Source: Dokdonia sp. Dokd-P16 (lineage in GTDB: Bacteria > Bacteroidota > Bacteroidia > Flavobacteriales > Flavobacteriaceae). Taken from it: 64,000 nt of DNA. Under the pieces are notes generated by a model that saw only the letters and a list, made by a program, of their open reading frames with translations, did no database searches and had not been told where the DNA came from. Shown here one piece after another: positions 4,591 through 58,570 of this stretch (position 1 is the stretch's first letter; each line of letters starts with the position of its first letter). The position numbers and the translations under genes are program-made. Location of the stretch: the NCBI RefSeq assembly GCF_003095655.1, contig NZ_CP029151.1, positions 3,037,001 to 3,101,000 on the forward strand, read 5' to 3'.

Positions 4591-4604
4591 GCTTTCGCGA
4601 AAGC
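4591..4604. repeat. Dispersed palindrome, exact core copy 1
   Basis: GCTTTCGCGAAAGC, intergenic, 30 bases before the ATG of the short-chain dehydrogenase. The flank is GCGT on the right only. Confidence 0.95.
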
Positions 4605-4634
4605 GTGATTATCTTTATAAAAAAACACGTAATC

Positions 4635-5351
4635 ATGGAATCATTAAAGGATAAAGTTGCATTAATAACAGGAGGAACAAAAGGAATAGGGCGCGGTATT
4701 GCCGAAGCCTTGTTGCATCAAGGGATGAAAGTAGCTATCACGGGAAGAGATGAGAAAGGTGCTCAAGAAGCAGCTCATGAGCTTACTGAAAATGATAATT
4801 ACATTCTCGGTATTGCTGCAGATGTAAGGAATTATGAAAGTCAGCAAAACGCGGTGAAAGCAGTGCTAGATAAATTTGGAAAAATTGATGTACTCATTGC
4901 AAATGCTGGTCTTGGTCATTTTGAGAGCATTGCAGATATGTCTATAAAACAATGGGATGAGACTATTGATACCAATCTTACGGGTGTTTTCTACTCGGTA
5001 AAAGCATCTCTTGAAGCACTTAAAAAAACAGAAGGATATATTTTTACAATTTCTAGTCTTGCGGGAACAAATTTCTTTGAAAAAGGAACAGCTTATAATG
5101 CAAGTAAATTTGGATTAACAGGATTCTCACAAGCCCTAATGTTAGACTTAAGACAAGACAATGTAAAAGTGACTACCATTATGCCAGGTTCTGTAAGTAG
5201 CCATTTTGGAGGTAGATCACCAGAGGAAGGCACAGACTGGCGCATACAACCTGAAGATCTCGGTCAAATTACCGTTGATCTTCTTAAAATGCATCCAAGA
5301 ACATTACCAAGTAAAATCGAGGTGCGCCCTTCTAAACCGCCTACTAAATAA
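4635..5351 (+). CDS. Short-chain dehydrogenase/reductase (SDR)
   Basis: A 238-residue classical SDR, cytosolic, probably NADP(H)-dependent. It has the cofactor motif TGGTKGIGRG at about 12-21, the NAG motif in NAGLGHFE, a catalytic Ser in ISSLAG, and the YxxxK pair Y154/K158 in YNASKFG. The open frame continues 40 codons further upstream, but that stretch runs through the dispersed palindrome and is Phe/Arg/Lys-rich without homology, so the ATG at 4635 is the likely start. The closest families are 3-oxoacyl-ACP-reductase-like and sepiapterin-reductase-like proteins; the substrate cannot be read from sequence. It is followed by a hairpin terminator. Confidence 0.9.
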   Translation: MESLKDKVALITGGTKGIGRGIAEALLHQGMKVAITGRDEKGAQEAAHELTENDNYILGIAADVRNYESQQNAVKAVLDKFGKIDVLIANAGLGHFESIADMSIKQWDETIDTNLTGVFYSVKASLEALKKTEGYIFTISSLAGTNFFEKGTAYNASKFGLTGFSQALMLDLRQDNVKVTTIMPGSVSSHFGGRSPEEGTDWRIQPEDLGQITVDLLKMHPRTLPSKIEVRPSKPPTK

Positions 5352-5369
5352 ATATAAGATATTTTGAAC

Positions 5370-5402
5370 AAAGCCTTCAATTAAGTTATAATTGAAGGCT
5401 TT
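5370..5402 (+). terminator. Hairpin terminator after the SDR gene
   Basis: AAAGCCTTCAATTA pairs with TAATTGAAGGCTTT around a 5-base loop, giving a 14-bp stem. The T-run after the stem is short. Between here and the hutH start at 5641 only AT-rich sequence is seen, presumably holding the hutH promoter. Confidence 0.65.
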
Positions 5403-5640
5403 ACTGATTTATAACCCTTTTACAATTAAACGCAAATTACTATTGCGATATTGATAACCGTAAATATTAACTAATATGAGATAATGTTTTAGCAAAACTT
5501 TCTTTGCTAGTTAGTTACTGGTTGAGTTTTATTATTTTCTTATAATTAGCTAGGGTGTATTATAAAAGTAAGTGAGCTGTATTTAAAAAATTCACAATTA
5601 TCTATATATTTTTTACGAAATTGCAGCAAATCTTCCCCTT

Positions 5641-7149
5641 ATGTCAACAATACATTATATCAGTAATGATATTCTCGATTTACAGACTATTTCAGAAATA
5701 ATATCTGAGCACAAAATGCTTGAGCTTAGTGAAGAAAGTATTCATAATATTAGTGCTTCTAGAAGTTATCTTGATAAAAAGATAGCGGAAAGTAAAGTGC
5801 CTGTATATGGTGTTAATACAGGTTTTGGGAGTCTTTGTAATGTCGCAATAAGCGATGAAAATTTAACCCATCTTCAAGAAAATCTTGTACGATCTCATGC
5901 TTGCGGTACTGGAGGTTATGTGCCTAAGGATATCGTAAAATTAATGATCTTGCTTAAGATTCAATCTTTAAGCTATGGTCATAGTGGTGTACATATCAAT
6001 ACAGTATTACGATTATTAGATTTCTATAATAATGATATACTACCAGTAATATATGAGCAAGGTTCGCTAGGTGCTAGTGGTGATCTAGCGCCACTTGCGC
6101 ATCTTGCCTTACCATTAATAGGCGAGGGGCATGTTTGGAACGGCGAGCATATAGAATCGTCTAGTATAGTAATGTCTAAATATGGTTTTGAACCTATAAA
6201 GCTTCACTCTAAAGAAGGACTTGCTCTATTGAACGGGACACAGTTTATGAGTGCATATGGAGTATACGCTCTTTTAAAATGCCATAAGCTTTCTTACATG
6301 GCAGATCTTATAGGAGCAATATCTATTGATGCATTTAATTGTAATCTGTCACCCTTTGATCCATTAGTACATTTTGTAAGACCACATAGAGGACAGATTA
6401 AAACAGCAGAACGCATCTTAGAATTACTAGATGGGAGCGACATTGCTGAGACGGAAAAGAATAACGTACAAGATCCGTATTCTTTTAGATGTATTCCGCA
6501 AGTGCACGGTGCATCTAAGGATGCTATTCATTTTGCAACTAAAACGTTTAAAACTGAAATCAATAGCGTTACTGATAACCCAAATATCTTTCCTGAAGAT
6601 GATAAAATTATAAGTGGAGGAAACTTTCATGGTCAACCACTAGCGCTAGCCTTAGACTTTTTATGTATTGCAATGGCAGAGTTAGGGAGTATTAGTGAAC
6701 GCCGCGTATTTCAACTCATAGGCGGCCTCAGAGGATTACCTCCATTTCTCGTAGACAGTCCAGGACTTAATAGTGGTATGATGATTACCCAATATTCTGC
6801 GGCGAGTATCGTGAGCCAGAATAAGCAATTATGTACGCCTGCAAGCGTAGATTCCATTGTTTCTTCAAATGGTCAAGAAGATCATGTAAGCATGGGGGCA
6901 AACGCTGCGACAAAACTATTACGTGTTGTTGATAACATAGAAACCTTATTATCTATCGAGCTCCTTAATGCTGTACAAGCATTACACTATAGAGCACCCT
7001 TAAAAACCTCTAATTTTCTAGAGGCTTTTGTAAAGAGTTATCGAGAAGTTGTTCCTTTTGCTGAAAAAGATCGCATCTTCTCTGAAGATATTTTTAAAGG
7101 GAAGGAGTTTTTAAACAGTCTTAATATTGATCCTAACGATCTTTACTAA
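5641..7149 (+). CDS. hutH: Histidine ammonia-lyase
   Basis: Deaminates L-histidine to trans-urocanate, the first step of histidine degradation, in the cytoplasm. At 502 residues it has the expected length. The MIO prosthetic group forms from the Ala-Ser-Gly triad at 145-147 within GSLGASGDLAPLAHL. VYGVNTGFG carries the catalytic Tyr loop. The selectivity region reads NLVRSHACGTG, and Ser-His here is the histidine-type signature rather than the one of tyrosine or phenylalanine lyases. QDPYSFRCIPQVHGA is also conserved. No other hut genes are adjacent, so it is either a stand-alone gene or the rest of the pathway lies elsewhere. The product ends 4 bases before the convergent STAS-like gene. Confidence 0.95.
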   Translation: MSTIHYISNDILDLQTISEIISEHKMLELSEESIHNISASRSYLDKKIAESKVPVYGVNTGFGSLCNVAISDENLTHLQENLVRSHACGTGGYVPKDIVKLMILLKIQSLSYGHSGVHINTVLRLLDFYNNDILPVIYEQGSLGASGDLAPLAHLALPLIGEGHVWNGEHIESSSIVMSKYGFEPIKLHSKEGLALLNGTQFMSAYGVYALLKCHKLSYMADLIGAISIDAFNCNLSPFDPLVHFVRPHRGQIKTAERILELLDGSDIAETEKNNVQDPYSFRCIPQVHGASKDAIHFATKTFKTEINSVTDNPNIFPEDDKIISGGNFHGQPLALALDFLCIAMAELGSISERRVFQLIGGLRGLPPFLVDSPGLNSGMMITQYSAASIVSQNKQLCTPASVDSIVSSNGQEDHVSMGANAATKLLRVVDNIETLLSIELLNAVQALHYRAPLKTSNFLEAFVKSYREVVPFAEKDRIFSEDIFKGKEFLNSLNIDPNDLY

Positions 7150-7152
7150 GGA

Positions 7153-7521
7153 TTATCTAACTAGCAGCTGAGACAACCAAGTCTTTGCGTCATTTACAGT
7201 ATTGAAAGACTCAAAGGGTTGGTTAAAAAATTGCTTTTCTAATAATACATTGGATTTAATAAGCGGATTATCAAAAACAACAGCAATGGCTTTAAGACCA
7301 CGATGATTTCCTGCATCCATATATACCGTAGGGTCTACTGAATATGAATTGAGTCTATATGAAATGTAACCAAAGGGCTTATCATTAAAATAGTCGTTGC
7401 AAAATGATAGTAGTAATTGGTTAGACTCTCGATCTACATGAGAGCCTTCTTTCATAATACCAATAACAAAATTGTCTTCGATTTGGATTTTTCCAAATTC
7501 AAATTCTTTAATATTTTTCAA
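7153..7521 (-). CDS. STAS/SpoIIAA-like small protein, paralog A
   Basis: A 122-residue soluble protein with no signal peptide or membrane segment. It shares its layout with the neighbouring gene, including YRLNSYSVDPTVY here against HRINSYSIDPIVY there, a preceding aromatic/basic strand, a central Ala/Val-rich strand (LKAIAVVFDN) and a C-terminal helix with FF..PFE...TV.DA. The alternating strand-helix pattern resembles STAS-like proteins found widely in Flavobacteriia, but no anti-sigma kinase gene is adjacent. Function unknown. It probably follows paralog B in one transcript (76-base gap). Confidence 0.75.
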   Translation of the reverse strand: MKNIKEFEFGKIQIEDNFVIGIMKEGSHVDRESNQLLLSFCNDYFNDKPFGYISYRLNSYSVDPTVYMDAGNHRGLKAIAVVFDNPLIKSNVLLEKQFFNQPFESFNTVNDAKTWLSQLLVR

Positions 7522-7597
7522 GAGTTGTAGGGGGAATTAATTTGTGCGCAAAACTCTTTCTTTTTTAAATAAGATAAAAGTATTTACCACAAAAAAA

Positions 7598-8142: not shown

Positions 8143-10695
8143 CTACGATTCTGTAGCTTCCGTCTTTTTTATATCAATAACTAATTCTTCTTTTTTCTCA
8201 TCAAAATCCATAAAGATGCTGTCACCTTCTTTAAGTTGAGAATTTATAATTTCCTCAGCTAGTGCATCTTCAATGTATTTTTGAATAGCTCTCTTAAGCG
8301 GTCTTGCTCCATACTCTTTATCAAATCCTTTATCACTTATGTAATCTTTAGCTTTTTCGCTAAGAGATAAGTCATATCCTAAGTCTTTAATTCTAGTGAA
8401 TAATTTTGCAAGTTCGATATCAATGATTTTATGAATATCCTCACGCTCTAGTGCATTAAATACCACAACATCATCTACACGATTTAAAAACTCTGGAGCA
8501 AATGCTTTTTTAAGTGCATTCTGTATAATACTTCTTGCATTATCATCTACTTGCGTTTTACGTGAAGCAGTGCCAAAACCAACACCCTGACCAAAGTCTT
8601 TGAGTTTTCTTGCACCTATATTAGATGTCATAATGATGATTGTATTTCTAAAATCAATTTTACGACCTAAAGAGTCTGTCAAGAAACCATCGTCTAGCAC
8701 TTGCAATAACATGTTAAATACATCTGGATGTGCTTTTTCTATTTCATCAAGAAGTACTACAGCATAAGGCTTGCGACGCACTTTTTCTGTAAGTTGTCCA
8801 CCTTCTTCATAACCTACGTATCCTGGAGGAGCTCCCACTAATCTAGATATGGAGAATTTCTCCATATACTCACTCATGTCAATACGTATGAGTGCATCTT
8901 GATTATCAAATAATTCCTTTGCAAGGACTTTTGCTAGTTGCGTTTTACCTACACCAGTTTGTCCTAAGAAAATAAATGAACCTATCGGCTTATTAGGATC
9001 TTTTAGTCCTGCTCTGTTACGTTGTATAGCCTTTGCTACTTTAGCAACTGCTTCGTCCTGACCTATTACATTTTTCTTAATGATAGCAGGTAGTTCGGCA
9101 AGTTTGTTACTTTCTGTTTGTGCAATACGATTCACAGGAATTCCTGTCATCATACTCACTACATCTGCAACATTATCTTCAGACACTTCTTCTTTATGAA
9201 GCTTTGCATCTTCTTCCCAGCGCTCTTGAGCGATAGCAAGTTCCTTTTCTAAAGTTTTCTCATCATCTCTAAGCTTGGCTGCTTCTTCATACTTCTGCTT
9301 TTTAACAACAGATGTTTTAAGTTCTCTTACTTCTTCTAGCTTCTTTTCTAGTTCTAGAATTTTCTTTGGGACATCTATGTTGGTAATATGCACACGAGAT
9401 CCAGCCTCATCAAGAGCGTCAATAGCTTTGTCTGGCAGAAATCTGTCTGTCATATATCTATTAGTAAGCTTCACACAAGCTTCGATAGCCTCATCCGTAT
9501 ATGTTACGTTGTGGTGTTCTTCGTACTTTCCTTTAATGTTCTGTAAGATTTCAATAGTTTCTTCAACCGTTGTAGGCTCGACAATCACTTTTTGGAAACG
9601 ACGCTCTAAAGCACCATCTTTTTCTATATGCTGGCGAAATTCATCTAGCGTAGTAGCTCCAACACATTGTATTTCGCCTCGAGCTAGTGCTGGTTTAAAC
9701 ATATTTGAAGCATCAAGAGATCCTGTTGCTCCACCTGCCCCTACAATTGTGTGAATTTCATCAATAAAAAGAATAATATCATCATTCTTTTCAAGCTCAT
9801 TCATCACAGCCTTCATACGCTCTTCAAACTGTCCTCTATACTTTGTTCCAGCTACAAGGCTAGCAAGATCAAGAGTAACGACACGCTTGTCAAAAAGTAT
9901 ACGTGATACTTTTCGCTGCACAATGCGTAGAGCAAGACCTTCGGCAATGGCAGATTTACCTACTCCAGGCTCTCCTATTAAAAGAGGGTTGTTCTTTTTA
10001 CGTCTGCTCAAAATCTGAGAGACACGTTCTATTTCTTTCTCGCGTCCTACTACTGGATCAAGTTTACCCTCGTCTGCCATTGCAGTAAGGTCTCTACCAA
10101 AATTATCTAGAACAGGAGTTTTACTTTTCTTTCCTCCTTTAGGCGTAGTAGGGCTGTTAAAAGGATTTTCTTTTGATCCTTCATCACTATTATCGGCATC
10201 ATCACTAAAAGATTCTGACTTAATAGGCTCTATATATTCATCGCTTTCGTTTGCCATCATTAATTTAAATTGGTCTTTTACACTGTCGTAATCTACTTTG
10301 AGTCGATTGAGCAGTTTTGTGGTAGGATCATTTTCATTACGTAGTACACATAATAATAAATGAGCCGTATTTATTGATGAACTTTGAAAAAGCTTTGCTT
10401 CTAAGAATGTGGTCTTAAGTGCACGCTCTGCCTGGCGAGTAAGGTGTAAGTTTTTCTTATCGTTACTCTGTAAGTTCAAGTTGGGGTTTGCCGGGCTTAG
10501 TATTTCAACTTTACGTCTTAAGTGCTCTAAGTCTATGTTTAAAGCTCCTAAAATATCGATTGCTTTACCGCTTCCGTCTCTTAATAAGCCAAGTAGTAAG
10601 TGTTCCGTACCTATAAAGTCATGACCTAATCTCAAGGCCTCTTCCTTACTATAAGCAATCACATCTTTTACTCTTGGTGAAAAATTATCGTCCAT
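8143..10695 (-). CDS. clpC: ATP-dependent Clp protease ATP-binding subunit ClpC
   Basis: Hsp100/AAA+ unfoldase that feeds substrates to ClpP. At 850 residues it has the full family layout: two Clp_N repeats at the start ([34 protein letters not shown]), an acidic linker near 150-190, AAA1 with Walker [10 protein letters not shown] at about 240-248, a UVR-type coiled middle segment near 460-500, and AAA2 with Walker [10 protein letters not shown] at about 576. AAA2 also has the pore loop GYVGYEEGG. The presence of the UVR motif and the short middle domain marks ClpC rather than ClpB or ClpA. It is head to head with gyrA across 251 bases and followed by a terminator. Confidence 0.97.
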
Positions 10696-10852: not shown

Positions 10853-10870
10853 ACGCTTTCGCGAAAGCGT
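10853..10870. repeat. Dispersed palindrome, full 18-bp copy 2
   Basis: ACGCTTTCGCGAAAGCGT, perfectly self-complementary, in the divergent clpC-gyrA gap, 76 bases before the gyrA start. It may sit within either promoter region. Confidence 0.97.
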
Positions 10871-10946: not shown

Positions 10947-13493
10947 ATGGCTGCAGGAGAAAAGCTGATCTCGATTAATATTGAAGATGAAATGAAATCT
11001 GCTTACATCGATTACTCGATGTCGGTTATCGTGTCACGTGCATTACCCGATGTACGCGATGGTCTTAAACCAGTACACCGTCGTGTTCTTTTTGGGATGC
11101 ACGAGTTAGGAATACGAGCAAGCGGTGCTCATAAAAAGAGTGCAAGAATAGTAGGAGAGGTACTAGGTAAGTATCACCCACACGGAGATACCTCTGTATA
11201 TGACGCTATGGTGCGTATGGCTCAAGAATGGAGTTTACGTTACATGCTCGTAGATGGTCAAGGTAACTTTGGGTCTGTAGATGGAGATAGCCCAGCAGCA
11301 ATGCGTTATACGGAGGCTAGAATGCAAAAAATATCTGAGGATATGCTTGCAGATATTGATAAAGACACTGTAGATCACCAACTTAACTTTGATGATACTC
11401 TAAAGGAGCCTACTGTGCTTCCTACTAGAGTGCCAGGCTTACTTATTAATGGTGCTTCTGGTATTGCAGTAGGTATGGCTACAAATATGCCTCCACACAA
11501 CCTGTCTGAGGTTGTAGACGGTATACATGCTTACATAGATAATAATGACGTTACTGTAGATGAATTAATGGAGCATGTAAAAGCTCCAGATTTTCCTACT
11601 GGTGGTACCATTTATGGGTATGATGGAGTAAGAGAAGCTTTTAAAACTGGTCGTGGTCGTGTTGTAATGCGTGCAAAGGCAGAGTTTGAAGAAGTTAAAG
11701 GTCGTGAGTGTATCATCGTAACAGAGATACCGTATCAAGTCAATAAGGCAGATATGATTAAGAAAACGGCAGATATGATTAACGATAAGAAGATCGAAGG
11801 GATCTCTGCTATTCGTGATGAATCTGACCGTAATGGAATGCGTATCGTTTATGTAATTAAACGTGATGGTATTCCTAATATCGTTCTTAATAAATTATAT
11901 AAGTATACAGCACTACAATCTTCGTTTAGTGTAAATAATATCGCCTTAGTTAATGGGCGTCCTGAGATGCTTAATCTTAAGGACATGATTCATCATTTTG
12001 TAGAGCACCGTCATGTAGTGGTAGTGCGACGTACAGAATACTTGCTTAAAAAAGCTGAGGATCGTGCACACATACTTGAGGGACTCATCATAGCATCTGA
12101 TAATATAGATGAAGTAATTGCAATTATACGTGCAAGTGCAAACGGTGATGAAGCTCGTAACAACTTAATCGAACGCTTTAAGCTTTCTGAAATTCAAGCA
12201 AAGGCGATTGTAGAGATGCGTTTACGTCAACTTACAGGTCTGGAACAAGACAAGTTGCGTACAGAGTATGACGAGATCATGAAAACCATTGATGATTTAA
12301 AGGATATCCTTGCTCATAAAGAACGTCGTATGACGATCATTAGAGAAGAGCTTCAAGAAATCAAAGATAAATATGGGGATGAGCGTCGTTCTGTTATTGA
12401 GTATGCTGGAGGAGATGTGAGTATTACAGATCTTATTCCAGATAAGAAAGTGGTAATTACTATTTCAAATGCTGGATATATTAAGAGAACTTCACTTACA
12501 GAATATAAGACTCAAAATAGGGGAGGAGTAGGTACAAAAGCATCTACTACTCGTAATGAGGATTTCTTAGAACATTTATTTGTGGGTACAAACCACCAGT
12601 ATATGTTATTCTTCACACAAAAAGGAAAATGTTTCTGGATGCGTGTATTTGAAATTCCTGAAGGTAGTAAAACTTCAAAAGGTCGTGCGATTCAAAATCT
12701 TATCAATATAGAACAGGATGATGAAGTAAAAGCATTTGTATGTACGGGTGATTTAAAAGATGAGGAATACATCAATAATCACTTTATCATTATGGCTACT
12801 AAAAAAGGACAAGTTAAGAAGACGGCTTTAGAGCAATATTCTCGTCCTCGTACTAATGGTATTAATGCAATTACCATTAAAGATGATGATGAATTACTAT
12901 CTGCAAAACTTACTACAGGAGAAAGTCAAGTAATGCTTGCACTTAAGTCTGGTAAGGCGATACGCTTTGAAGAAAGCAAGACAAGACCTATGGGAAGAAA
13001 CGCTTCTGGCGTTCGTGGCATAACTCTTGCAAATGATCAAGACGAGGTCATAGGTATGGTTTCTGTAAATGACGTAGAAAGCAATATTCTCGTTGTATCA
13101 GAAAAAGGATATGGTAAGCGCAGTAGTCTTGAAGATTACAGAATTACTAACCGTGGAGGAAAAGGTGTAAAAACTATTTCTGTAACAGAGAAAACCGGTG
13201 AACTTGTAGCTATTAAAAATGTAACAGATGAGGATGATCTTATGATTATTAATAAATCTGGTATTGCCATAAGAATGGAAGTAGCTTCTCTTAGAGTTAT
13301 GGGTAGAGCAACACAAGGTGTTAGACTTATAAATCTTAAAGGAAATGATTCTATTGCAGCTGTTGCCAAAGTAAAAAGCGACGATGATGCGATAGATGAA
13401 GAAGATCTAGAAGGAGTAGTAGATGAAACTACTGAGAATCCTTCTGGAGAGTCAACAGCCCAAGAACAAAACTCATCTGATGAAGAAGAGTAG
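10947..13493 (+). CDS. gyrA: DNA gyrase subunit A
   Basis: The breakage-reunion subunit of the type II topoisomerase that introduces negative supercoils with GyrB. At 848 residues it starts with the conserved [25 protein letters not shown]-type block. The catalytic Tyr is residue 121 in MRYTEARM. The quinolone pocket reads [11 protein letters not shown], with Thr at the position equivalent to E. coli Ser83 and Asp at 87; Thr here is also seen in susceptible wild types, so no resistance is implied. The C-terminal pinwheel has NRGGKGVKT, resembling the GyrA box and separating it from ParC. The tail is acidic. gyrB is not in the window. Confidence 0.97.
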
Positions 13494-14885: not shown

Positions 14886-15635
14886 CTATATAATTTTCTT
14901 AATAACTCTTAATTTATGAGTGTGTACACCCTTATGTACATTGTATATACCAGAATGATCTAAGCGATCAATTCTCACTTCTCCGTGAGCGTGTATGATA
15001 TAATTATCTTCCATAATAATACCTACGTGCGTTATTATTCCCTCTGCATTGTCAAAAAATGCCAGATCCCCAGGTTCACTTTCCTCTATAAAACTTAACG
15101 CCTCACCTTGTGTTGCTTGTTGTGAGGCATCTCTTTTAAGGTCAAAGCCATTTAGTCGATATACCATTTGAGTAAAACCACTACAATCTATACCAAAGGT
15201 TGTCCTTCCGCCCCATAAATATGGAGTTTTGAGATAGAGTAGTGCTGTTTCCACAAGTTGGGCTCTGGTTGTTTTTCCAGTGTGACTATTGCCATCGTAA
15301 GAATCTTTAAGAAGCGCAATATTTTCAACAGAAGAACCTAGCACTACCGTAAGTAGTTGATTATGTTCTGTTGTGATAAATTGTACAGGATCTGTGGTGA
15401 GTGTGGTTTGTTGCGCTTTCGCGAAAGCGTACTCCTCCTCACTAATCTCTATGTATTGCTTATTATCAATCCATCCCTCATATTTATCATGAGAAAGTTT
15501 AATACGGCTCCATTGCTTGCGTTGCTCCACAACCTTAAAATGTTCACCATAGAGAACTTGATTTACAAGTTCGCTAGGATCCGAAGGTTCGGCGCGCATA
15601 GGGACTATACTAAGCTGGCAAATACCGTATCGCAT
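14886..15635 (-). CDS. NlpC/P60 cysteine peptidase with N-terminal SH3-like domain
   Basis: A 249-residue probable gamma-D-glutamyl-(L)-meso-diaminopimelate endopeptidase. There is no signal peptide, so a cytosolic role in muropeptide recycling (YkfC-like) is likelier than cell-wall turnover; this is inference. The N-terminal 65 residues form an SH3b-like domain (VPMRAEPSDPSELVNQVLYGE, then WSRIKL and YEGWID). The catalytic domain has WGG, the nucleophile C151 in DCSGF, H203 in THVGI, and a polar third residue in the HAHGEV segment. The dispersed palindrome is inserted in frame and encodes AFAKA at 70-74, in the linker between the two domains. It lies 15 bases after the thiolase gene, so one operon. 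Confidence 0.88.
   Translation of the reverse strand: MRYGICQLSIVPMRAEPSDPSELVNQVLYGEHFKVVEQRKQWSRIKLSHDKYEGWIDNKQYIEISEEEYAFAKAQQTTLTTDPVQFITTEHNQLLTVVLGSSVENIALLKDSYDGNSHTGKTTRAQLVETALLYLKTPYLWGGRTTFGIDCSGFTQMVYRLNGFDLKRDASQQATQGEALSFIEESEPGDLAFFDNAEGIITHVGIIMEDNYIIHAHGEVRIDRLDHSGIYNVHKGVHTHKLRVIKKII
15413..15430. repeat. Dispersed palindrome, copy 3, inside NlpC/P60 gene
   Basis: GCGCTTTCGCGAAAGCGT has one mismatch at the outer base against the 18-mer. It is in frame and translated as YAFAKAQ in the linker between the SH3-like and peptidase domains. Confidence 0.95.
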
Positions 15636-19067: not shown

Positions 19068-19081
19068 ACTTTCGCGAAAGC
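19068..19081. repeat. Dispersed palindrome, degenerate copy
   Basis: ACTTTCGCGAAAGC differs from the 14-base core at the first base only. It is intergenic between convergent genes and abuts the A-run of the following hairpin. Confidence 0.8.
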
Positions 19082-24641: not shown

Positions 24642-24659
24642 ACGCTTTCGCGAAAGCGT
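24642..24659. repeat. Dispersed palindrome, full 18-bp copy 4
   Basis: ACGCTTTCGCGAAAGCGT starting 68 bases upstream of the M1-like gene start and ending 7 bases beyond the LOG stop codon. It has no T-run, so it is not a standard terminator. Confidence 0.97.
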
Positions 24660-25404: not shown

Positions 25405-28236
25405 TTATGCCATTTCCTTCTTTAGGAACTGGGCTGTATATCCTTTATTTTTTTTAATTATTTGTTCTGGAGTACCAATGGCGACTACCTCGCCACCACC
25501 TTTTCCACCTTCATATCCAATATCTATGATGTGATCTGCCGTTTTTACAACATCTAGATTATGCTCGATAATGAGGATGGTATTTCCTTTGTCTACAAGA
25601 CGGTTGAGTACATCCATTAATACTCTAATGTCTTCAAAATGAAGCCCTGTGGTAGGCTCATCTAGTATGTAAAAGGTATTCCCGGTATCTCTCTTACTAA
25701 GTTCTGATGCTAGTTTAATACGCTGCGCTTCACCACCAGAGAGCGTAGTGCTCTGTTGTCCCAGTGTAATATAGCCTAATCCTACGTCTTTTATCGTTTT
25801 AAGTTTGCGATATATTTTAGGAATAGGTTCAAAAAAGTCTGCTGCCTCGGTCATAGTCATCTCAAGAACATCAGAAATTGATTTTCCTTTATAACGTATT
25901 TCTAGCGTTTCTCTATTAAAACGCTTTCCTTGACACGTCTCGCACTCTACATAAACATCTGGTAAGAAGTTCATCTCAATTACTCTTAAACCACCACCTT
26001 TACAAGTCTCACAACGACCACCCTTGACATTAAAGCTAAAACGTCCAGGTTTGTAACCTCTTATAAGTGCCTCAGGGGTCTTTGCAAAGAGACTTCTTAT
26101 TTCATCAAAAGCTTTAGTGTAGGTTGCAGGATTAGACCTAGGTGTACGCCCTATAGGTGTTTGATTGATATCTATTACTTTGTCACATTCGTCTAGTCCT
26201 TTGATGCTCTTGTAAGGCATAGGTACTTTTACACCATTAAAATAATGAGCATTCATAATAGGGTAGAGCGTTTCATTAATCAGAGTAGACTTACCACTAC
26301 CAGAAACTCCTGTAACCGCAATCATTTTGCCTAATGGGATCTTAATAGAAACATTTTTTAGATTGTTTCCTGTAGCTCCTTTAAGCTCTATAAACTTACC
26401 ATTTCCTTTTCGACGTTGTTTTGGGATGGTAATTTCTTTTTCACCATTCAAGTATTGTGCTGTAAGTGTATGGTGCTTTATTAAATCTTCTGGAGTTCCT
26501 TCACTTATTATTTCTCCTCCAAAACGCCCTGCTCTTGGTCCTATATCAATTACGTGATCTGCACGCTCAATCATATCTTTATCATGCTCTACAACGATGA
26601 CAGAGTTTCCTATATCACGCAGAGAAATAAGCGAATTTATAAGTTTTTCATTATCACGTTGATGTAGTCCAATACTAGGTTCATCTAGTATGTATAATAC
26701 GCCTACAAGTTGCGATCCTATTTGTGTAGCGAGCCTAATACGTTGTGCCTCTCCACCAGATAAGGACTTAGAGCTTCTGTTTAAATTAAGATAGGTAAGT
26801 CCTACATCTACAAGGAATTGTATTCTTGCATTAATTTCTTTAATTATCTCAGATGCAATCTGTAATTGCTTGCTAGATAGTCGTTTTTCTACTGTCTTAA
26901 ACCATTCTTGTAGCTCAAGAATATCCATAGAAGCAAGGTCTGTTATGCTGCGATCATCAACCTTAAAGTAAAGCGATTCTTTGCGCAATCTTGATCCCTC
27001 ACAAACGGGACAAGCTACCTTATCCATGTATCCTTTTGCCCAGCGCACGAGTGAGGTAGACTCACTATCATTAAAGGTGTTTTCAATAAAATTTGCTACA
27101 CCTTCAAAATCAATTTTATAATCTCTAGTAACACCTAATTGCTTTGAAGAAACAGAGAATTTTTCATTTCCGCCATAGAATATAAAATCCATAGCTTCTT
27201 CAGAAATCTTTTCAATAGGGTCAGTTAGTTTAAAGTCAAACCTCTCTGCAATAAGTTGAAGTTGTTTAAAGATCCAGTTGTTCTTCTTAGGTCCATGAGG
27301 ATCTAGTCCGCCAGCGTTAATAGATAGTTTTGGGTCTGGGACTATCTTTTTAGGATTTACTTTATATAGCTCTCCTATACCATTACAGTTAGGGCAAGCG
27401 CCCTTAGGTGAGTTAAAGGAGAAGTTATTTGGTTCTGGATTAGGATATGAGATTCCTGTAGAAGGACACATCAAGTTTCGGCTAAAATAACGTACTTCCT
27501 GCGTGTCTTGGTCAAGCACCATTAAAACATCATCACCGTGATACATCGCGGTATTTATGCTTTCGCGAAGGCGTTTATCATCGTCATCACCTTTTTTTAC
27601 GAGCATACGATCTACTACAATCTCAATATCGTGTACTTTGTAACGGTCTACTTTTAATCCTTTTACAATATCCTTGACCTCACCATCTACACGAACCTTA
27701 ACAAAACCCTGTTTTGCAATTTGTTCAAATAACTCTCTATAATGCCCTTTACGCGAGCGTATGGTAGGAGCGAGGATGTTAATCCTTTTACCTTCAAAAC
27801 TCTCTGTAATGAGCTTCTGTATTTGTTCGTCATTGTAACTTACCATCTTTTCGCCCGTATTGTAAGAGTAGGCATCTGCCGCTCTCGCATAAAGAAGACG
27901 TAAAAAATCATAAATTTCTGTAATAGTTCCTACGGTAGATCGCGGACTTTTACTAGTGGTTTTTTGCTCGATAGCAATAACCGGAGAAAGTCCTAGAATT
28001 TGGTCTACATCTGGACGTTCTAATCCTCCTAGAAACTGTCGTGCATATGCAGAAAACGTTTCTATGTAACGACGTTGTCCTTCTGCATAGATAGTATCAA
28101 AGGCTAGCGAACTCTTTCCACTTCCAGATAACCCTGTAATTACAACGAGTTTTTCTCTCGGTATCATTACGTCTATATTCTTTAGATTGTGGGCGCGAGC
28201 ACCGTAAACTTCAATACGTTCTTCGTGATCTATCAT
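25405..28236 (-). CDS. uvrA: Excinuclease ABC subunit A
   Basis: Damage-recognition ATPase of nucleotide excision repair; it loads UvrB on DNA. At 943 residues it has two ABC modules, each split by a zinc module: Walker [10 protein letters not shown] at 35-43 and GVSGSGKST in the second half, zinc cysteines in CPSTG...CPNC and CETCKGGG...CETCQG, and two LSGGEAQRI signatures. A degenerate palindrome (GCTTTCGCGAAGGC) is in frame at about residue 221, encoding LRES within the RLRESINTA segment of the first insertion domain. The minus-strand box TAAATTTG lies 17 bases upstream of the ATG. Confidence 0.98.
27559..27572. repeat. Dispersed palindrome, degenerate copy inside uvrA
   Basis: GCTTTCGCGAAGGC, one mismatch from the core. 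It is in frame in uvrA and read as LRES, the third possible reading frame of the element. Confidence 0.75.
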
Positions 28237-28340: not shown

Positions 28341-28358
28341 ACGCTTTCGCGAAAGCGT
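28341..28358. repeat. Dispersed palindrome, full 18-bp copy 5
   Basis: ACGCTTTCGCGAAAGCGT in the gap between the methyltransferase stop (28396) and uvrA start (28236), both on the minus strand. Confidence 0.97.
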
Positions 28359-36300: not shown

Positions 36301-37131
36301 TGGGAAGTTGTGTGTTTCTGCTTTTAAAGAAATAACAGAGTCAAAATCTTTCTCTGTATAGAAATCTGGCTTATCTGCAGTGTCTGGTGCAAACTGTGTT
36401 ACTCTAGGTCCTTCTATAAAAGCAACATTATCTTTATATGCAGATACAATGGTACCTGGAGTTACTTTTGAAGTTTCTTTTATTAATTTAAATAGGGAAG
36501 AAGGCATCTCTTCTCCATCAATCACAAAAGTTCCATTAAAAATCTTGTGACGACAGTGCTCCGAGTTTACTTGGCTAAAACCAAAAACTTCAGAGTCTGT
36601 AAGTGGTCTGCCTATTTTGGCAGCAACACCATCAAGATAAGCAACCTCTTCATCGCTTAACGACAAACCTTCTTGCTCATTATATGCAGCAATATTCTCT
36701 ATAGATAATATTGGTTCTGGAGTAACGTTAACCGTAAAAATATCCTGATTTAAAGCTGCGTACTCTTGAGAGATCATAGGATCATAATCAGGAGTACTTT
36801 CTGTAACTACGCCTGTAGCATCTTCTATAGATGGAAAAGGATTCGTGTTAACTTGTTGTGATGAAGAGTCCGCTTTCGCGAAAGCGTGAAACTCCTCTAT
36901 CCTTATAATATTTAAAATTCCCATATTCTGGGTAATCTCTACAGCATTAGTACTCCAAGGCGTAATCATGGCTGCTCTTGGGCCAATAAAAAAAGCGTCA
37001 ATATGAGACGCTTCTATTTTTTGAGAGTTGCCAAAAAGCCATACGAGCTTAGCGGTATCGTCCTGTGTAAATGCTTGTGTGCTTTGTACTGCGTAAACAG
37101 TGCCTTGAGGGTTTCCAAAGAAGTGGATCAT
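33394..37131 (-). CDS. purL: Phosphoribosylformylglycinamidine synthase, large single-chain form
   Basis: Converts FGAR plus glutamine and ATP to FGAM in purine synthesis. At 1245 residues it is the long form that carries the glutaminase domain. The ATPase core has SVISLKAETHNFPT, GAATGSGGEIRD, MGGAAVSS and IVSIHDHGAGG. The C-terminal glutamine amidotransferase has the nucleophile Cys in VGICNGAQLF (about residue 1092) and WISHGEGRFD. It contains two in-frame copies of the dispersed palindrome, each encoding AFAKA: one near 82-86 in a weakly conserved segment and one near 828-832. Start MIHFFGNPQG is the expected N-terminus. Confidence 0.96.
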   Translation of the reverse strand: MIHFFGNPQGTVYAVQSTQAFTQDDTAKLVWLFGNSQKIEASHIDAFFIGPRAAMITPWSTNAVEITQNMGILNIIRIEEFHAFAKADSSSQQVNTNPFPSIEDATGVVTESTPDYDPMISQEYAALNQDIFTVNVTPEPILSIENIAAYNEQEGLSLSDEEVAYLDGVAAKIGRPLTDSEVFGFSQVNSEHCRHKIFNGTFVIDGEEMPSSLFKLIKETSKVTPGTIVSAYKDNVAFIEGPRVTQFAPDTADKPDFYTEKDFDSVISLKAETHNFPTTVEPFNGAATGSGGEIRDRLAGGKGSLPLAGTAVYMTPYSRLEKERPWEHGMDARKWLYQNPIDLLIKASNGASDFGNKFGQPLIVGSVLTFEHQEDGQRLGYDKVIMQAGGIGYGKREQALKDTPQEGDKIVILGGENYRIGMGGAAVSSADTGAFDSGIELNAVQRSNPEMQKRAANAVRGMVESDVNPIVSIHDHGAGGHLNCLSELVEDTGGLINLDKLPVGDPTLSAKEIIGNESQERMGLVIGEKDIDMLQRIADRERSPMYEVGDVTNDHRFTFKSKTTGLSPMDLHLDDMFGSSPKTIMTDKTVVRNYKNPEYQLEHFHDYLEQVLQLEAVACKDWLTNKVDRCVGGRVAKQQCVGPLQIPLNNVGVMALDYKSTEGIATSIGHSPVSGLIDPVAGSKNSIAEALTNIVWAPLKDGLQSVSLSANWMWPCKNEGEDARLYKAVEAISAMAINLGINVPTGKDSLSMKQKYPDGDVIAPGTVVISAAGNCNDINKVVEPVLQKDGGAIYYINMSGDTHKLGGSSFAQVCHAIGNEAPSVLSDTAFAKAFNAIQQLIKEDKIQAGHDVASGGLITTLLELCFADVNLGANLDLTALGEQDLIKLLFSENAGLVFQADTSVEKILTDNGVTFSKIGTVTTTAELTIKNSGVELGLNIASLRDTWFKTSYLLDNKQTANGLAKDRFDNYKVQPLQYTFPAHFTGKKPVLDTSKARPKAAILREKGSNSEREMANAMYLAGFDVKDVHMTDLISGRETLEDIQFLGAVGGFSNSDVLGSAKGWAGAIKYNEKANKAIKNFFAREDTLSVGICNGAQLFLELDLINPDHEKLAKLKHNNSRKHESNFTSVKIEENNSVMLSTLAGTTLGVWISHGEGRFDLPMGANAYDIVATYGYEGYPANPNGSDFNTAMICDTTGRHLATMPHIERSTFPWNWAHYPAGNNDEVSPWVEAFVNAKNWVEKNS
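34632..34649. repeat. Dispersed palindrome, copy 7, inside purL
   Basis: ACGCTTTCGCGAAAGCGG, in frame as TAFAKAF at about residue 830 of the purL product. Confidence 0.95.
36871..36886. repeat. Dispersed palindrome, copy 8, inside purL
   Basis: CGCTTTCGCGAAAGCG, in frame as HAFAKAD near residue 83 of the purL product. Second copy in the same gene. Confidence 0.95.
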
Positions 37132-40428: not shown

Positions 40429-41640
40429 TTATTGCTTTCGCGAAAGCAATGCCATGTAGAATCCGTCGTAACCAGTCTTTGCAGGGCTTACTGTTTCTTC
40501 TTTTTCAAGTTGAAACTTTTGACCTTGCTCTGTAGCTAAAAAAGCTTGGATTTGCTCTTGATTCTCTCTAGGTAAGATAGAACAAGTTGCATAAAGCATT
40601 TTACCGCCGTCCTTCACAATTTTACTATAGCTCTCTAACAATTCTGCTTGTCTTTGTACCACCTTATCAATAAACTCTGGCTGTAATTTCCATTTTAGAT
40701 CAGGGTTACGTTTAATAGTTCCTAGTCCAGTACATGGCGCATCGATTAATACGCGGTCTGCTGTATTGTAGAGTTTCTTAAAAATCTTTGTTGAGGTGAT
40801 TTCTCTCGTCTCAATGTTGTGAGCTCCAGCGCGCTTAGATCTTCTTTTAAGTTCCTTAAGTTTACCCTCATAGATATCCATGGCGATAATCTGCCCTTTA
40901 TTTTCCATCAAGGCTGCTAGGTGTAATGTTTTTCCTCCAGCTCCTGCACAAGTATCTACTACGCGCATTCCTGGTTGTACATCAAGCATGCGTGCCACTT
41001 TTTGAGATGAGGCGTCTTGTACTTCAAAGAAACCGTTTTTGAAAGCTTCTGTTGTAAATACATTCTTACGTTCTACAAGCTCTACAGCATCAGGATAGCC
41101 ATCTAATAATCGGGTGTCAATATCTTGATCTGCAAGCGTATTTCTTAAGTATTTTGGAGTGGTTTTTAACGTATTTGCTCTAAGTACTACTTGTGCCTGT
41201 GTATTTAAAGCAGCAAGCTCTGCGGCCCATTTTTTACCAAGAGCTTTCTCTCCCATTTCGTCCATCCAATCTGGAATAGATTCCTTGAATTTTCTAATTT
41301 TTGAAAGCTCATCAAAACGACCTTTTATTCTACGAGTAGGTATAGGTTCCATTTGTTTCCAGTCTGGAACTTCAATACCTCTTAATGTTGCCCAAACGGC
41401 AAATAACCTAAATAAATTAGGCCTGCTATATGGTGCTTTTACTTCTGCAATTTCTGAGTATAATCTTTGCCAGCGCACGATATCGTATACTGTCTCTGCA
41501 ATGAAACCGCGATCACGGGATCCCCATCTTTTGTCAAATTTGAGAACCTTTCTTAAAACCTTATCAGCTTGTTCTCCGTCATTAAATATCATCCCTAATG
41601 CATCAACTGCGGCAAAGACTAAATTTCTGTGTAATTTCAT
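40429..41640 (-). CDS. RsmB/NOP family rRNA (cytosine-C5) methyltransferase
   Basis: A 403-residue SAM-dependent methyltransferase acting on rRNA, in the cytoplasm. The SAM motif is DTCAGAGGKT at 229-238. The two catalytic cysteines are C303 in DAPCTGLG and C353 in ATCSILP. The N-terminal about 140 residues match the NusB-like RNA-binding start of RsmB proteins, although this one is shorter than E. coli RsmB. The C-terminus LLSRKQ is encoded by the palindrome and the stop codon follows it directly, so an insertion seems to have set the present end of the protein. A TACCTTTA box lies 18 bases upstream. Confidence 0.9.
   Translation of the reverse strand: MKLHRNLVFAAVDALGMIFNDGEQADKVLRKVLKFDKRWGSRDRGFIAETVYDIVRWQRLYSEIAEVKAPYSRPNLFRLFAVWATLRGIEVPDWKQMEPIPTRRIKGRFDELSKIRKFKESIPDWMDEMGEKALGKKWAAELAALNTQAQVVLRANTLKTTPKYLRNTLADQDIDTRLLDGYPDAVELVERKNVFTTEAFKNGFFEVQDASSQKVARMLDVQPGMRVVDTCAGAGGKTLHLAALMENKGQIIAMDIYEGKLKELKRRSKRAGAHNIETREITSTKIFKKLYNTADRVLIDAPCTGLGTIKRNPDLKWKLQPEFIDKVVQRQAELLESYSKIVKDGGKMLYATCSILPRENQEQIQAFLATEQGQKFQLEKEETVSPAKTGYDGFYMALLSRKQ
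40432..40449. repeat. Dispersed palindrome, copy 9, at the 3' end of the rsmB-like gene
   Basis: TTGCTTTCGCGAAAGCAA. The core is exact and the outer bases remain self-complementary but differ from ACG...CGT. It encodes LSRKQ directly before TAA. Confidence 0.95.
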
Positions 41641-43303: not shown

Positions 43304-43831
43304 TTAATCTAAGTAAAAGTGGTAGCTATCTGTGCGATCATCTAGATAGTCTATAATAGCTGATTCGTCTAAAGCAATATCGTTATGAAGCGCATCAATG
43401 TCATCATCAGATAACCAATCGGCAAATTCTATTTGTTCAAGATCACCGGCTTCTCCATCAAGATATTCTGCAATAGCAATACTCTCAATTCCTGTAGTCG
43501 TATCTAGTTGTGACCAAACAATACTAGCTAGGAGTAGGAGGGCAGCAGCAACTCCTGCAATTGAATAATAATAGCTCTTAAGAGATATTACTTTAGTAGC
43601 AGTAGTTTGAGTTGATGTATTTTCTTCTTCTAGCTTTTGCGAAAGCATAGCAAGCATTTCGTTTTTAGAGTTTTCAAAATATCCATCAGGAATATCATAG
43701 CGCTCACTATTTGAGCTAGATACTTTTGCTCTTAAGGTGATTTCATCAAGAATTACTTCTCGACTAGTGTCGAAATAATCTTGAGGAACTTTAAAACCTC
43801 TCGTTGACGGTATGTTGTTTGTTTCTTTCAC
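43304..43831 (-). CDS. Probable membrane anti-sigma factor
   Basis: A 175-residue single-pass protein. The N-terminal cytosolic part has two parallel phrases, VPQDYFDTSREVILDEI and IPDGYFENSKNEMLAML, and the membrane segment is about 88-108 (SIAGVAAALLLLASIVW). The short C-terminal part is acidic. Its place directly after an ECF sigma gene and before an LTXXQ gene indicates it inhibits that sigma. No zinc-binding HxxxCxxC motif is visible, so it is not a ZAS-type anti-sigma. A degenerate palindrome in frame encodes LSQK. Confidence 0.72.
   Translation of the reverse strand: MKETNNIPSTRGFKVPQDYFDTSREVILDEITLRAKVSSSNSERYDIPDGYFENSKNEMLAMLSQKLEEENTSTQTTATKVISLKSYYYSIAGVAAALLLLASIVWSQLDTTTGIESIAIAEYLDGEAGDLEQIEFADWLSDDDIDALHNDIALDESAIIDYLDDRTDSYHFYLD
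43633..43646. repeat. Dispersed palindrome, degenerate copy in the anti-sigma gene
   Basis: GCTTTTGCGAAAGC, one mismatch from the core; read in frame as LSQK. Confidence 0.6.
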
Positions 43832-46353: not shown

Positions 46354-46371
46354 ACGCTTTCGCGAAAGCGC
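46354..46371. repeat. Dispersed palindrome, copy 10
   Basis: ACGCTTTCGCGAAAGCGC, ending 9 bases before the TAGTTTTG box of the ABC transporter gene. Confidence 0.97.
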
Positions 46372-49972: not shown

Positions 49973-49989
49973 ACGCTTTCGCGAAAGCT
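49973..49989. repeat. Dispersed palindrome, copy 11
   Basis: ACGCTTTCGCGAAAGCT; core exact, the right outer flank has decayed. It lies 21 bases upstream of the TATCTTTA box of the cold-shock gene. Confidence 0.93.
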
Positions 49990-52536: not shown

Positions 52537-53937
52537 TTAAGCAGAAATAGCAAGTGATACAATAAGCGGATTTTTATGTCTACGTAAATAACTTCTCAAT
52601 ATAATGTCTGTATGATACGTACTTTTTTTAGGTAATAAATGTGAGGCTACTTCATCAAAATGACTCACTTGCTCTGTCTCAGGTACAAAGCCAAAACCTT
52701 TATAAACGCCTTTATCTATGTATATAAAGGCTGTTTCATCATCTGTACGACCATCTTCTTTTATAATATAACTCTCATTTTCTGCATCAAAGGATTGTAA
52801 CGCTTCACGAACGCGTAGATTATAATCAGTTACAGATTCGTTATCACTACAGATACCTTTACAATTTTTTAAACTATAATGTGAGCACTCATTAAAGGTT
52901 GCCTGTAAACCGCAAAAACGTGGGCATAACTCATACATCTCACAAAGCTCCATGAGTCGCTCTGTAGCTTTGGCTCTAGTAAATACTTTTTGAGTTGCTG
53001 TATGTCTATATTTTGTCTTGGCTACCGCGAGTTGTATGATACCTTTTCTATTCTCATACGATATAATAGAGTAGGTGCTTGTGGGTATTTTTTGAGCTCT
53101 ATTGAACTTTGGGAAATATTGCTGGATATATTCAGATTCTAGTAATAATGCGCAAAGCTCATTTCCAGTAACTTCATAATCTATTTGATAGGTTTCTTGA
53201 CCTAGTAAATATTCTTTGTTCTTCTTATCGTAAAAATGGGAGAGGACTCTCTTTTTAATATTAATAGCTTTACCTACGTAAATCACTTTACCTGCACGAT
53301 CTTTAAATAAGTAAATGCCAGCAGTTTCAGGTAACTCTTGTATAATGCGTGACGGCAAGTGCGGTGGTAGTGTAGCTTCTTTAGAGCGCACGTTGAGAAA
53401 GGAGCTCATAACTTTACTATGCTCATCAAGGGTGAGTAATCGTTTAAAAAGAATTACAGTAGCATCTGTATCCCCTTCGGCTCTGTGGCGATTATTAAGA
53501 GGAATTCCTATAGAGGCACAAAGATTACCTAAAGAATAACAGAAGAGACTAGGTATAAGCTTTCGCGAAAGCCTCACCGTACACAGTTTTTTTCTAGTAA
53601 ATGAATGACCGAGTCGCTTAAACTCGCTACGCAACACGTTAAAATCAAAAGTGACGTTATGTGCTACAAATATGGCTCCTGAGGATATCTCAATAATTCG
53701 ATCTGCGATTTCATTAAACAATGGTGCATCTGCCACCATAGCGTCATCTATACCCGTAAGATTAGTAATAAATGGCGGAATGTATTGTTCAGGATTTACT
53801 AGTGAAGTAAATTTATCTACTACTTCACCATCTTTGAGGCGTACCGCACATATTTCTGTTATGCGATTGCCATTAATTCCTTTTCCCGTAGTTTCTACGT
53901 CTATAACACAATGATATGTAGGCTCTGTCTCATTCAT
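52537..53937 (-). CDS. DnaQ-like exonuclease fused to a UvrC-type GIY-YIG nuclease
   Basis: A 466-residue two-nuclease protein. The N-terminal DEDDh exonuclease (about 8-170) has D13 and E15 in VIDVETTG, D98 in TFDFNV, and H151 and D156 in HRAEGDTD. The GIY-YIG domain follows at about 205-285, with GIYLF at 207-211, YVGKA at 220-224 and the Arg in IKKRV. The C-terminal 180 residues include a Cys-rich segment (CEMYELCPRFCGL, CSHYSLKNCKGIC). This architecture is known from bacterial UvrC/Cho-related proteins and suggests DNA repair. The palindrome encodes LSRK at 123-126, in a loop of the exonuclease. Confidence 0.9.
   Translation of the reverse strand: MNETEPTYHCVIDVETTGKGINGNRITEICAVRLKDGEVVDKFTSLVNPEQYIPPFITNLTGIDDAMVADAPLFNEIADRIIEISSGAIFVAHNVTFDFNVLRSEFKRLGHSFTRKKLCTVRLSRKLIPSLFCYSLGNLCASIGIPLNNRHRAEGDTDATVILFKRLLTLDEHSKVMSSFLNVRSKEATLPPHLPSRIIQELPETAGIYLFKDRAGKVIYVGKAINIKKRVLSHFYDKKNKEYLLGQETYQIDYEVTGNELCALLLESEYIQQYFPKFNRAQKIPTSTYSIISYENRKGIIQLAVAKTKYRHTATQKVFTRAKATERLMELCEMYELCPRFCGLQATFNECSHYSLKNCKGICSDNESVTDYNLRVREALQSFDAENESYIIKEDGRTDDETAFIYIDKGVYKGFGFVPETEQVSHFDEVASHLLPKKSTYHTDIILRSYLRRHKNPLIVSLAISA
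53558..53574. repeat. Dispersed palindrome, copy 12, in the exonuclease/GIY-YIG gene
   Basis: AGCTTTCGCGAAAGCCT; core exact. In frame as RLSRKL, between the second and third exonuclease motifs. Confidence 0.95.
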
Positions 53938-55634: not shown

Positions 55635-55639
55635 CATTT

Positions 55640-55663
55640 AAACCCTTGCAAAAGGGTTTTTTT
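55640..55663 (+). terminator. Rho-independent terminator ending at the next start codon
   Basis: AAACCCTT pairs with AAGGGTTT around GCAA, followed by eight T (55656-55663). The ATG of the YihY-type gene starts at 55664, immediately after the T-run. Confidence 0.8.
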
Positions 55664-56620: not shown

Positions 56621-56622
56621 TT

Positions 56623-56640
56623 ACGCTTTCGCGAAAACTA
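56623..56640. repeat. Dispersed palindrome, degenerate copy
   Basis: ACGCTTTCGCGAAAACTA; left half exact, right half GCGAAAAC. Two bases after the YihY-type stop codon. Confidence 0.8.
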
Positions 56641-56669
56641 CCAATTAACAATAAACTAAATAACCAAAT

Positions 56670-57713: not shown

Positions 57714-57740
57714 TTGTGAGAACATTTATTAAAAAGTTGT

Positions 57741-57770
57741 AAAAAGCGAGCTATAATGGCTCGCTTTTTA
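57741..57770 (+). terminator. Hairpin terminator after the alcohol dehydrogenase gene
   Basis: AAAAAGCGAGC and GCTCGCTTTTT form an 11-bp stem with a 7-base loop, followed by a T-run. It lies 27 bases after the stop. Confidence 0.85.
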
Positions 57771-57860
57771 TGTTTTTAACGTCTTGTGATTCATTTTTAA
57801 CGATTACTTAGCGGACATTCTTTTGTGTCCTTGTGATATTTGTAAAAAAAAATATTTACT

Positions 57861-58484
57861 ATGTTTTTAGACAAAACGATACTGTTAGGAGGGTGCATTG
57901 CTGCATTCGTTACGCTATCATCTTGTGATAATAAACAGCGAGGTCAACAAATACGCGAGGAAGCGCAACGCGAGATTGTGCAGAAGAAATTATCAGAAAA
58001 AGCCTTAAAGGAACAGATAATCAGAGAAGATAATAAGGTGCATGGCCTAGTTTCTAAAATTAACGATACTGAGGAGCTTTCTGAATTTGAATTACAAATT
58101 AAGGAACTAGAATTAGATGAATGTTTAGTAAACCAAGGATCTTTTACCATATTTGCCCCAAATAACAAGGCGTTTGATAATAAAAACTTAAGTGTCTTAG
58201 ATAAGAAATCTAGCGATTATAATAAGGTTGAGGCAAAAAAAGCACTTAAGTACCACGTAATTCAAAATAAGTGGACAGCAGAAAAACTAGAATCAGAAAT
58301 CGTAAAAAGTGGCGGTTCATTAGAGTTGACTACTCAAAATGGAGCTAGCATCCATGCGACATTAGACAAAACAAACATCATTCTCAATGATGAAAGTGGC
58401 CATACTGCTAGAATACTATCTGCAGATATGAGTGCTTCAAACGGCTCTTTATATATTATAGATAGCGTTTTAATGGCTGACTAA
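57861..58484 (+). CDS. Fasciclin (FAS1) domain lipoprotein
   Basis: A 207-residue lipoprotein. Lipobox is near 17-22 (TLSSC). A charged helix of about 40 residues (REEAQREIVQKKLSEKALKEQ) links to the FAS1 domain: the phrase QGSFTIFAPNNKAFDN, then LKYHVIQNKWTAEKL, and the C-terminal SNGSLYIIDSVLM. FAS1 domains mediate adhesion or cell-surface interaction; exact role unknown. Single gene, no neighbour in operon. Confidence 0.88.
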   Translation: MFLDKTILLGGCIAAFVTLSSCDNKQRGQQIREEAQREIVQKKLSEKALKEQIIREDNKVHGLVSKINDTEELSEFELQIKELELDECLVNQGSFTIFAPNNKAFDNKNLSVLDKKSSDYNKVEAKKALKYHVIQNKWTAEKLESEIVKSGGSLELTTQNGASIHATLDKTNIILNDESGHTARILSADMSASNGSLYIIDSVLMAD

Positions 58485-58552
58485 CTTTTTAAATGTTCCC
58501 TTTTGTGAGGAAAGCTAAATAACTCCTATGGAAGTTCGTATATGTTCTTATT

Positions 58553-58570
58553 ACGCTTTCGCGAAAGCGT
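58553..58570. repeat. Dispersed palindrome, full 18-bp copy 13
   Basis: ACGCTTTCGCGAAAGCGT, intergenic, 127 bases before the tamB start. Confidence 0.97.

Follow-up and report, generated by a model that had tools for sequence, protein, structure and literature searches.

A recurrent palindrome in Dokdonia sp. Dokd-P16

The stretch analysed here (the window) comprises 64,000 nucleotides of the chromosome of Dokdonia sp. Dokd-P16 (NZ_CP029151.1, positions 3,037,001 to 3,101,000) and harbors, among and within genes such as gyrA and purL, 13 exact and four one-mismatch copies of the 14-bp palindrome GCTTTCGCGAAAGC, eight of whose 14 bases are G/C. By comparison, 100 shuffles of the window, searched with up to two mismatches allowed, yielded a mean of 0.15 matches and a maximum of 2. 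The initial annotation, which correctly assigned the DNA to the Flavobacteriia, had reported a perfect 18-bp palindrome, or its 14-base core, at these places. Every one of its coordinates could be verified and the core is exact at 13 of them, but the full 18-mer, ACGCTTTCGCGAAAGCGT, surrounds the core at only four (10855, 24644, 28343 and 58555). About half of the copies had been described as intergenic, and seven of the 13 exact copies, or nine of all 17, indeed fall outside the frames taken as genes, the TTG-start frame 4515-5351 not being counted as a gene. The copies are as follows, in window positions and with no strand assigned.

4591-4604: exact core; outside gene frames, upstream of the minus-strand gene 3418-4539 and within the uncounted TTG-start frame 4515-5351
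10855-10868: exact core and full 18-mer; between two divergent genes, one of the ClpB/ClpC AAA type (8143-10695) and gyrA (10947-13493)
15415-15428: exact core; within an NlpC/P60 gene, translated AFAKA
19068-19081: one-mismatch copy; convergent gap
24644-24657: exact core and full 18-mer; intergenic
27559-27572: one-mismatch copy; coding sequence
28343-28356: exact core and full 18-mer; intergenic
33131-33144: exact core; early in the gene of a secreted M14 carboxypeptidase, translated AFAKA (about residues 17-21)
34634-34647: exact core; within purL, translated AFAKAF (for example NFKTAF, of equal length, in site-less relatives)
36872-36885: exact core; within purL, translated AFAKA in a linker whose length varies
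40434-40447: exact core; covers the final codons of a gene for an RsmB/F-type methyltransferase
43633-43646: one-mismatch copy; coding sequence, exact in the genomes G006 and G008
46356-46369: exact core; intergenic, in the region upstream of a gene for an ABC transporter
49975-49988: exact core; intergenic, with a single mismatch in G006
53559-53572: exact core; within an exonuclease/GIY-YIG gene, one to two mismatches in G008, G016, G004 and G003
56625-56638: one-mismatch copy; intergenic
58555-58568: exact core and full 18-mer; intergenic

The AFAKA peptide at 33131-33144 might sit where the signal peptide of the carboxypeptidase ends.

Abundance and anatomy of the site

The complete chromosome (3,623,447 bases in one contig) contains 808 exact copies of GCTTTCGCGAAAGC, equivalent to 223 per Mb or approximately one per 4.5 kb, while the reversed pattern, used as a control, does not occur at all. 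The extreme rarity by chance proposed in the initial annotation is thus upheld, and with 808 copies in the chromosome the palindrome does not show the scarcity beyond the window that had been named as grounds against a special element. In a chromosome sample of 464 kb (454 kb readable and 10 kb unreadable), 85 exact copies were counted, against 0.0006 expected from base make-up. Copies with zero, one, two and three mismatches number 85, 13, 20 and 37, respectively, and the ratio of observed to expected copies drops 315-fold at the first mismatch.

The 10-bp heart of the site, TTTCGCGAAA, is found 111 times in the same sample, where 0.53 occurrences are expected. It is bounded by GC on both sides in 85 cases, on one side in 25 and on neither in one, so that at least one side is complete in 110 of the 111. 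The other end of the 25 one-sided copies reads AT (12), AC (7), AA (3), GT (2) or TA (1). Of the 26 copies of TTTCGCGAAA in which GC is missing from one or both ends, five lie within chromosome positions 400001-420000 (stretch positions 77, 262, 1491, 11299 and 14485), adjoining two exact copies.

Among the 98 exact or one-mismatch sites of the sample, the flanking consensus is TTAC before the core and GTAA after it, and a 5′ arm of approximately 18 bases is C-poor and T/G-rich, with its mirror image on the opposite side. This bias is found alike in the 53 coding and the 32 intergenic copies of the sample. The arms are also biased in Nonlabens (C: 0.089 versus 0.175 overall; G: 0.243 versus 0.178), as judged from loci picked for containing an 18-mer together with two further stretches, while the three copies read in G230, the only genome of a third site-rich genus, are too few for judging a bias. 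Left and right arms do not covary, their pairing being no better than that of independent columns, and a longer hairpin is therefore ruled out. No constant flanking unit was seen around the sites.

Conservation and origin by substitution in place

At the 13 exact window sites, G006 has 12 exact copies and one with a single mismatch, while G008 has eleven exact copies, one with a single mismatch and one place that is not alignable. In G003, G004 and G016, at about 75% identity, eight of the 13 sites are unalignable in each genome, two to three are the same and two to three are changed or shifted. Over four species pairs, divergence of the core amounts to 0.6-1.0% versus 6.8-11.4% overall, a 9- to 21-fold reduction in an estimate that leans somewhat towards conservation, as only sites that are exact in whichever genome of a pair came first were counted. 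At a distance of 7-25 bases from the centre, divergence is 5.4-11.4%, nearly as much as in the surroundings, and the arms therefore preserve their base make-up rather than their sequence. Divergence is lower near the sites than far from them in all four pairs, but this gradient is not significant (fraction of shifts that attain the observed value: 0.055-0.323).

Where loci can be compared, copies arise by base substitution in place. The PurL comparison covered 22 of 29 loci (15 from Dokdonia and seven from outside), leaving out seven fragments or rows of other families. The second purL site is present in 12 of the 15 Dokdonia rows, all carriers encoding AFAKAF, and absent from three Dokdonia and the seven outside genomes, which encode for example NFKTAF or YFKTVF without any insertion or deletion. 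The first purL site, located in the variable-length linker, is present in 11 of the 15 Dokdonia rows. Upstream of gyrA, a site is found at nearly equal distance in all eleven other Dokdonia loci and in G230, at a different distance in all three Nonlabens loci, and in none of five genomes of site-less genera. Read by eye, the clpC-gyrA gap also shows substitution in place, its length being about equal to that in G029.

Site positions in G230 are held in common with Dokdonia in four of four rows, at three places. For Nonlabens, 56 sites were considered, including one locus labelled BBFL7, of which 18 could be mapped onto Dokdonia sequence. A Dokdonia site lies within 60 bases of two of these, within 150 bases of six and within 300 bases of seven, the chance of one within 150 bases being about 6% per Nonlabens site. 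One of the two matches within 60 bases is the weak match of the BBFL7 locus, and four of the six within 150 bases are in the clpC-gyrA gap, where some may represent one copy counted twice. Dokdonia and Nonlabens thus have the motif in common, but the places, to the extent that they are mappable, mostly differ.

Distribution of the site among genomes

In a set of 59 genomes that included the one under study, all 18 Dokdonia genomes are rich in the site (369-905 copies each), while one Nonlabens genome has 578 copies, one other genome six and the remaining 39 none. A wider survey of 397 genomes of the family identified six rich genomes (two Dokdonia, three Nonlabens and G230 of the third genus, g210, with 408 copies), 74 with 1-19 copies and 317 with none, and the reversed control gave one copy in one genome. 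All 23 Nonlabens genomes are rich (288-857 copies). Across 296 genomes of the phylum, a match was found in 16, namely the genome under study and 15 others with 1-4 copies. Single copies at this level are near chance, since the reversed control matches once in each of 12 of the 296 genomes. Among the 80 named-genome matches listed for the 18-mer, 76 bear the label Dokdonia or Nonlabens, and the other four are labelled as Muricauda sp. TY007, Flavobacteria bacterium BBFL7, a Flavobacteriaceae and a Cytophagaceae metagenome-assembled genome. No analogous 12-bp palindrome with at least three copies was found in small samples of 20-40 kb from each of ten site-less genomes. In a GyrA tree the site-bearing genera fall into two groups, although a single clade is not rejected (p = 0.163). 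The ParB tree requires three changes, at least two of which are forced by starred branches.

In six genomes, belonging to six genera without chromosomal abundance, the stretches read contain 26 of the 33 copies. These stretches are mutually related, two of them being 99.96% identical over 35 kb across different genera, and apparently represent mobile elements. The one from G200, the only one scanned (10 frames), encodes metal-efflux genes and an RteC-type regulator. Where the elements can be aligned (68-95% identity), some site positions are exactly shared and others altered by substitution. Five elements, with G254 omitted as a near copy of G200, contain seven one-mismatch against 22 exact copies, compared to 13 against 85 at home, and this higher share is suggestive of a decay of the sites. 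We infer that the copies on these elements were exported from Dokdonia or Nonlabens hosts. Some viral contigs carry two or three copies, and these are perhaps phages of the same hosts.

Placement and spacing along the chromosome

With genes predicted by a simple longest-frame rule, 32 of the 85 exact copies in the 464-kb sample are intergenic, while only about 12% of the bases are. These 32 copies are located in 22 co-directional, seven divergent and three convergent gaps, and the absence of a preference for convergent gaps speaks against a transcription terminator. Eighteen of twenty 20-kb stretches across the chromosome contain 1-7 copies and two contain none, while the window contains 13. 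The sign of the GC skew switches between the 1.4 and 1.6 Mb stretches and a parS-like site is found at 1340048-1340063 (1.34 Mb), and on these grounds the window is probably near the terminus. Site density is alike around the presumed origin and terminus, with no drop near the latter.

Spacing is more even than random in the window (coefficient of variation, CV: 0.43) and in G016 (CV: 0.61; first 67 positions). Gaps shorter than 1 kb fall below the number that the median predicts, with six seen against 18 expected in the genome under study, two against 13 in G016 and five against 16 in the Nonlabens genome G715.

Candidate readers and alternative explanations

The presence of candidate protein families was determined in 24 genomes, of which 12 carry the site and 12 lack it. 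A ParB paralogue as reader is rejected, given that each of the 12 site-bearing genomes encodes a single ParB_N protein. The binding sites of ParB (parS) and Noc are palindromes of 14-16 bp with TTTC...GAAA halves, and the Dokdonia site resembles them in length and in its halves. It differs in occurring at hundreds of places chromosome-wide rather than at few to tens, in the single ParB per genome and in coexisting with a separate parS-like site, since perfect or one-mismatch matches to the parS consensus were present in all eight site-bearing genomes searched and in none of four site-less ones. A long ParB_N-domain protein (616 amino acid frame) is encoded in G029 (C18, 76088-76363), near site copies on the same contig. 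The SOS repressor of the Bacteroidetes is also rejected as reader: its motifs, given as CTAA-N5-TTAG and GGA-N5-TCC in PMC8565304, differ from the palindrome, and the larger of its regulons comprise about nine operons. Close pairs of sites, as a possible pointer to the gene of the reader, were inspected at two places, where the genes appeared ordinary by eye, no family search having been made.

The initial annotation had offered three explanations: a mobile palindrome of the REP/MITE kind moved by a RAYT-like transposase, a DNA-uptake or recombination signal, and a site for a chromosome-organising protein, the last of which is the one preferred here. The mobile element is highly improbable. 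The site has the shortness, palindromy and high copy number of REP sequences, and the family of Y1 transposases (E 0.001) is present in three of three Nonlabens genomes and weakly in one of eight Dokdonia. It is, however, absent from eight of nine Dokdonia and third-genus genomes, that of Dokd-P16 included, and present in six of the 12 site-less genomes, so that a transposase of this kind is rejected as mover for Dokdonia and the explanation fails. Moreover, no insertion footprint was seen, the empty places in purL and in the clpC-gyrA gap, the two available, being equal or near-equal in length. The copies also have no fixed flanks, and their positions are common to close Dokdonia species and to G230. 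A highly iterated palindrome (HIP), made or kept through biased mismatch repair by a methyltransferase with a short inner target such as CGCG or TCGCGA, also appears improbable. PMC4390886 describes HIPs as palindromes of 5-8 bases, sometimes extended, that are over-represented genome-wide at 1000-2000 per Mb and may differ between lineages, and the cyanobacterial HIP1 (GCGATCGC) likewise is an exact palindrome in hundreds or more copies, restricted to a lineage. The Dokdonia site is longer (14-18 bp), has one fifth to one ninth of that density at 223 per Mb, and possesses biased arms. CGCG, counted in all contexts, shows no enrichment in the chromosome sample (492 seen versus 550 expected), and C5 methyltransferases, absent from six of the 12 site-bearing and present in eight of the 12 site-less genomes, do not follow the site and are rejected as its reader; N6 and N4 methyltransferases were not searched. 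There is similarly little to recommend a Chi-like control site for recombination, palindromic and thus acting from both sides, at which the T/G-rich 5′ arm would promote the loading of RecA. The density of about one per 4.5 kb is near that of Chi in Escherichia coli, and both strands have a G/T-rich arm on the 5′ side of the site. Known Chi sites are nevertheless oriented, non-palindromic sequences of 5-8 bases, while the Dokdonia site has 14 bp and a symmetry that makes orientation impossible, and the divergence near sites shows no significant gradient.

The main rival is recognition during DNA uptake, whereby competent cells prefer site-bearing DNA and recombination spreads the sites by molecular drive. 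It explains almost as much as a chromosome-organising protein, and although we consider it unlikely, it stands well ahead of the preceding alternatives. The uptake sequences of Neisseriaceae (DUS) and Pasteurellaceae (USS) resemble the Dokdonia site in their many near-exact copies, in-place evolution, genus specificity and steep mismatch drop, and the restriction to genera, with one dialect common to two of them, fits such a role. Uptake sequences are not known to be palindromic, and the symmetry of the present site is thus atypical and mildly unfavourable. The site also belongs to another phylum and is without a known receptor, no receptor family having been searched, where ComP is known to receive uptake sequences. 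A ComEC-type channel is encoded in all 24 genomes; as these include the 12 without the site, its presence is not specific and thus uninformative. Natural competence has been reported in the Flavobacteriaceae, in Riemerella (PMC7965970). According to PMC1939737, uptake sequences evolve by point mutation rather than insertion, reside in non-coding and weakly constrained coding sequence, and become less over-represented with each mismatch, a pattern matched here by the in-place substitution, the coding and intergenic placement and the drop per mismatch. The first drop is steeper, however, at 315-fold versus the 82-92-fold given there for Neisseria and Haemophilus, whose motifs differ in length, and the lack of a significant fall in divergence near sites in the four species pairs (0.055-0.323) is mildly unfavourable.

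A putative chromosome-organising protein

The symmetric core and arms, the near all-or-none conservation, the in-place origin and the chromosome-wide presence lead us to favour a dimeric DNA-binding protein. On the basis of sequence comparisons, we tentatively regard the sites as putative anchors of a candidate dimeric chromosome-organising protein, a reading ahead of its rivals but held with reserve. Each copy would be bound by a symmetric, sequence-specific protein belonging to the lineages of Dokdonia and Nonlabens, and each of its subunits would read half of the palindrome and contact one arm, with binding near all-or-none. The protein would organise the chromosome in an architectural or tethering role, with anchors at intervals of 3-5 kb, and the sites would be created and maintained by selection for cover.

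Several observations weigh against this proposal. None of the three families ParB, Y1 transposase and C5 methyltransferase tracks the site, so that no binder was found among those tested. The organisers Noc, MatP and SlmA bind palindromic sites that number in the tens and occupy one part of the chromosome, unlike the hundreds found everywhere here. Of the 85 copies in the sample, 53 lie inside coding sequence. The first 100 copies of the genome under study are not evenly spaced (CV: 1.07), the value falling to 0.72 only once three gaps above 15 kb are dropped, a choice made afterwards, and the spacing in Nonlabens G715 (CV: 0.92) does not differ significantly from random. As for one arm per subunit, 14 one-sided copies of the AT/GC type decide neither way, the AT side being only slightly less arm-like (C: 0.147 versus 0.123 on the GC side).

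Implications

The letters of TTTCGCGAAA occur in ten open-licence PubMed Central papers, while the 12- or 14-base form occurs in none and no title concerns the element. Nor was a description found there in the literature on highly iterated palindromes, palindromes of Flavobacteria, Dokdonia and Nonlabens, or uptake sequences, in agreement with the initial annotation, which was aware of none. It is conceivable, though still rather doubtful, that a DNA-reading system wrote the same 14-bp palindrome with its arms hundreds of times and largely independently into Dokdonia and Nonlabens, possibly being passed between the genera and overriding protein sequence, and that these marks are anchors or self-marks of an undescribed kind.

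A 14-bp palindrome that is present at about 800 places, is kept against a divergence of about 10% and extends even to the coding sequence of enzymes such as PurL constitutes a very strong genome-wide signal in marine bacteria. Its reader is expected to be peculiar to two or three genera and hence findable, and a comparison of genera that have this reader with others that lack it would allow direct tests of how chromosome-wide short motifs, whether uptake sequences, highly iterated palindromes or anchors, originate.

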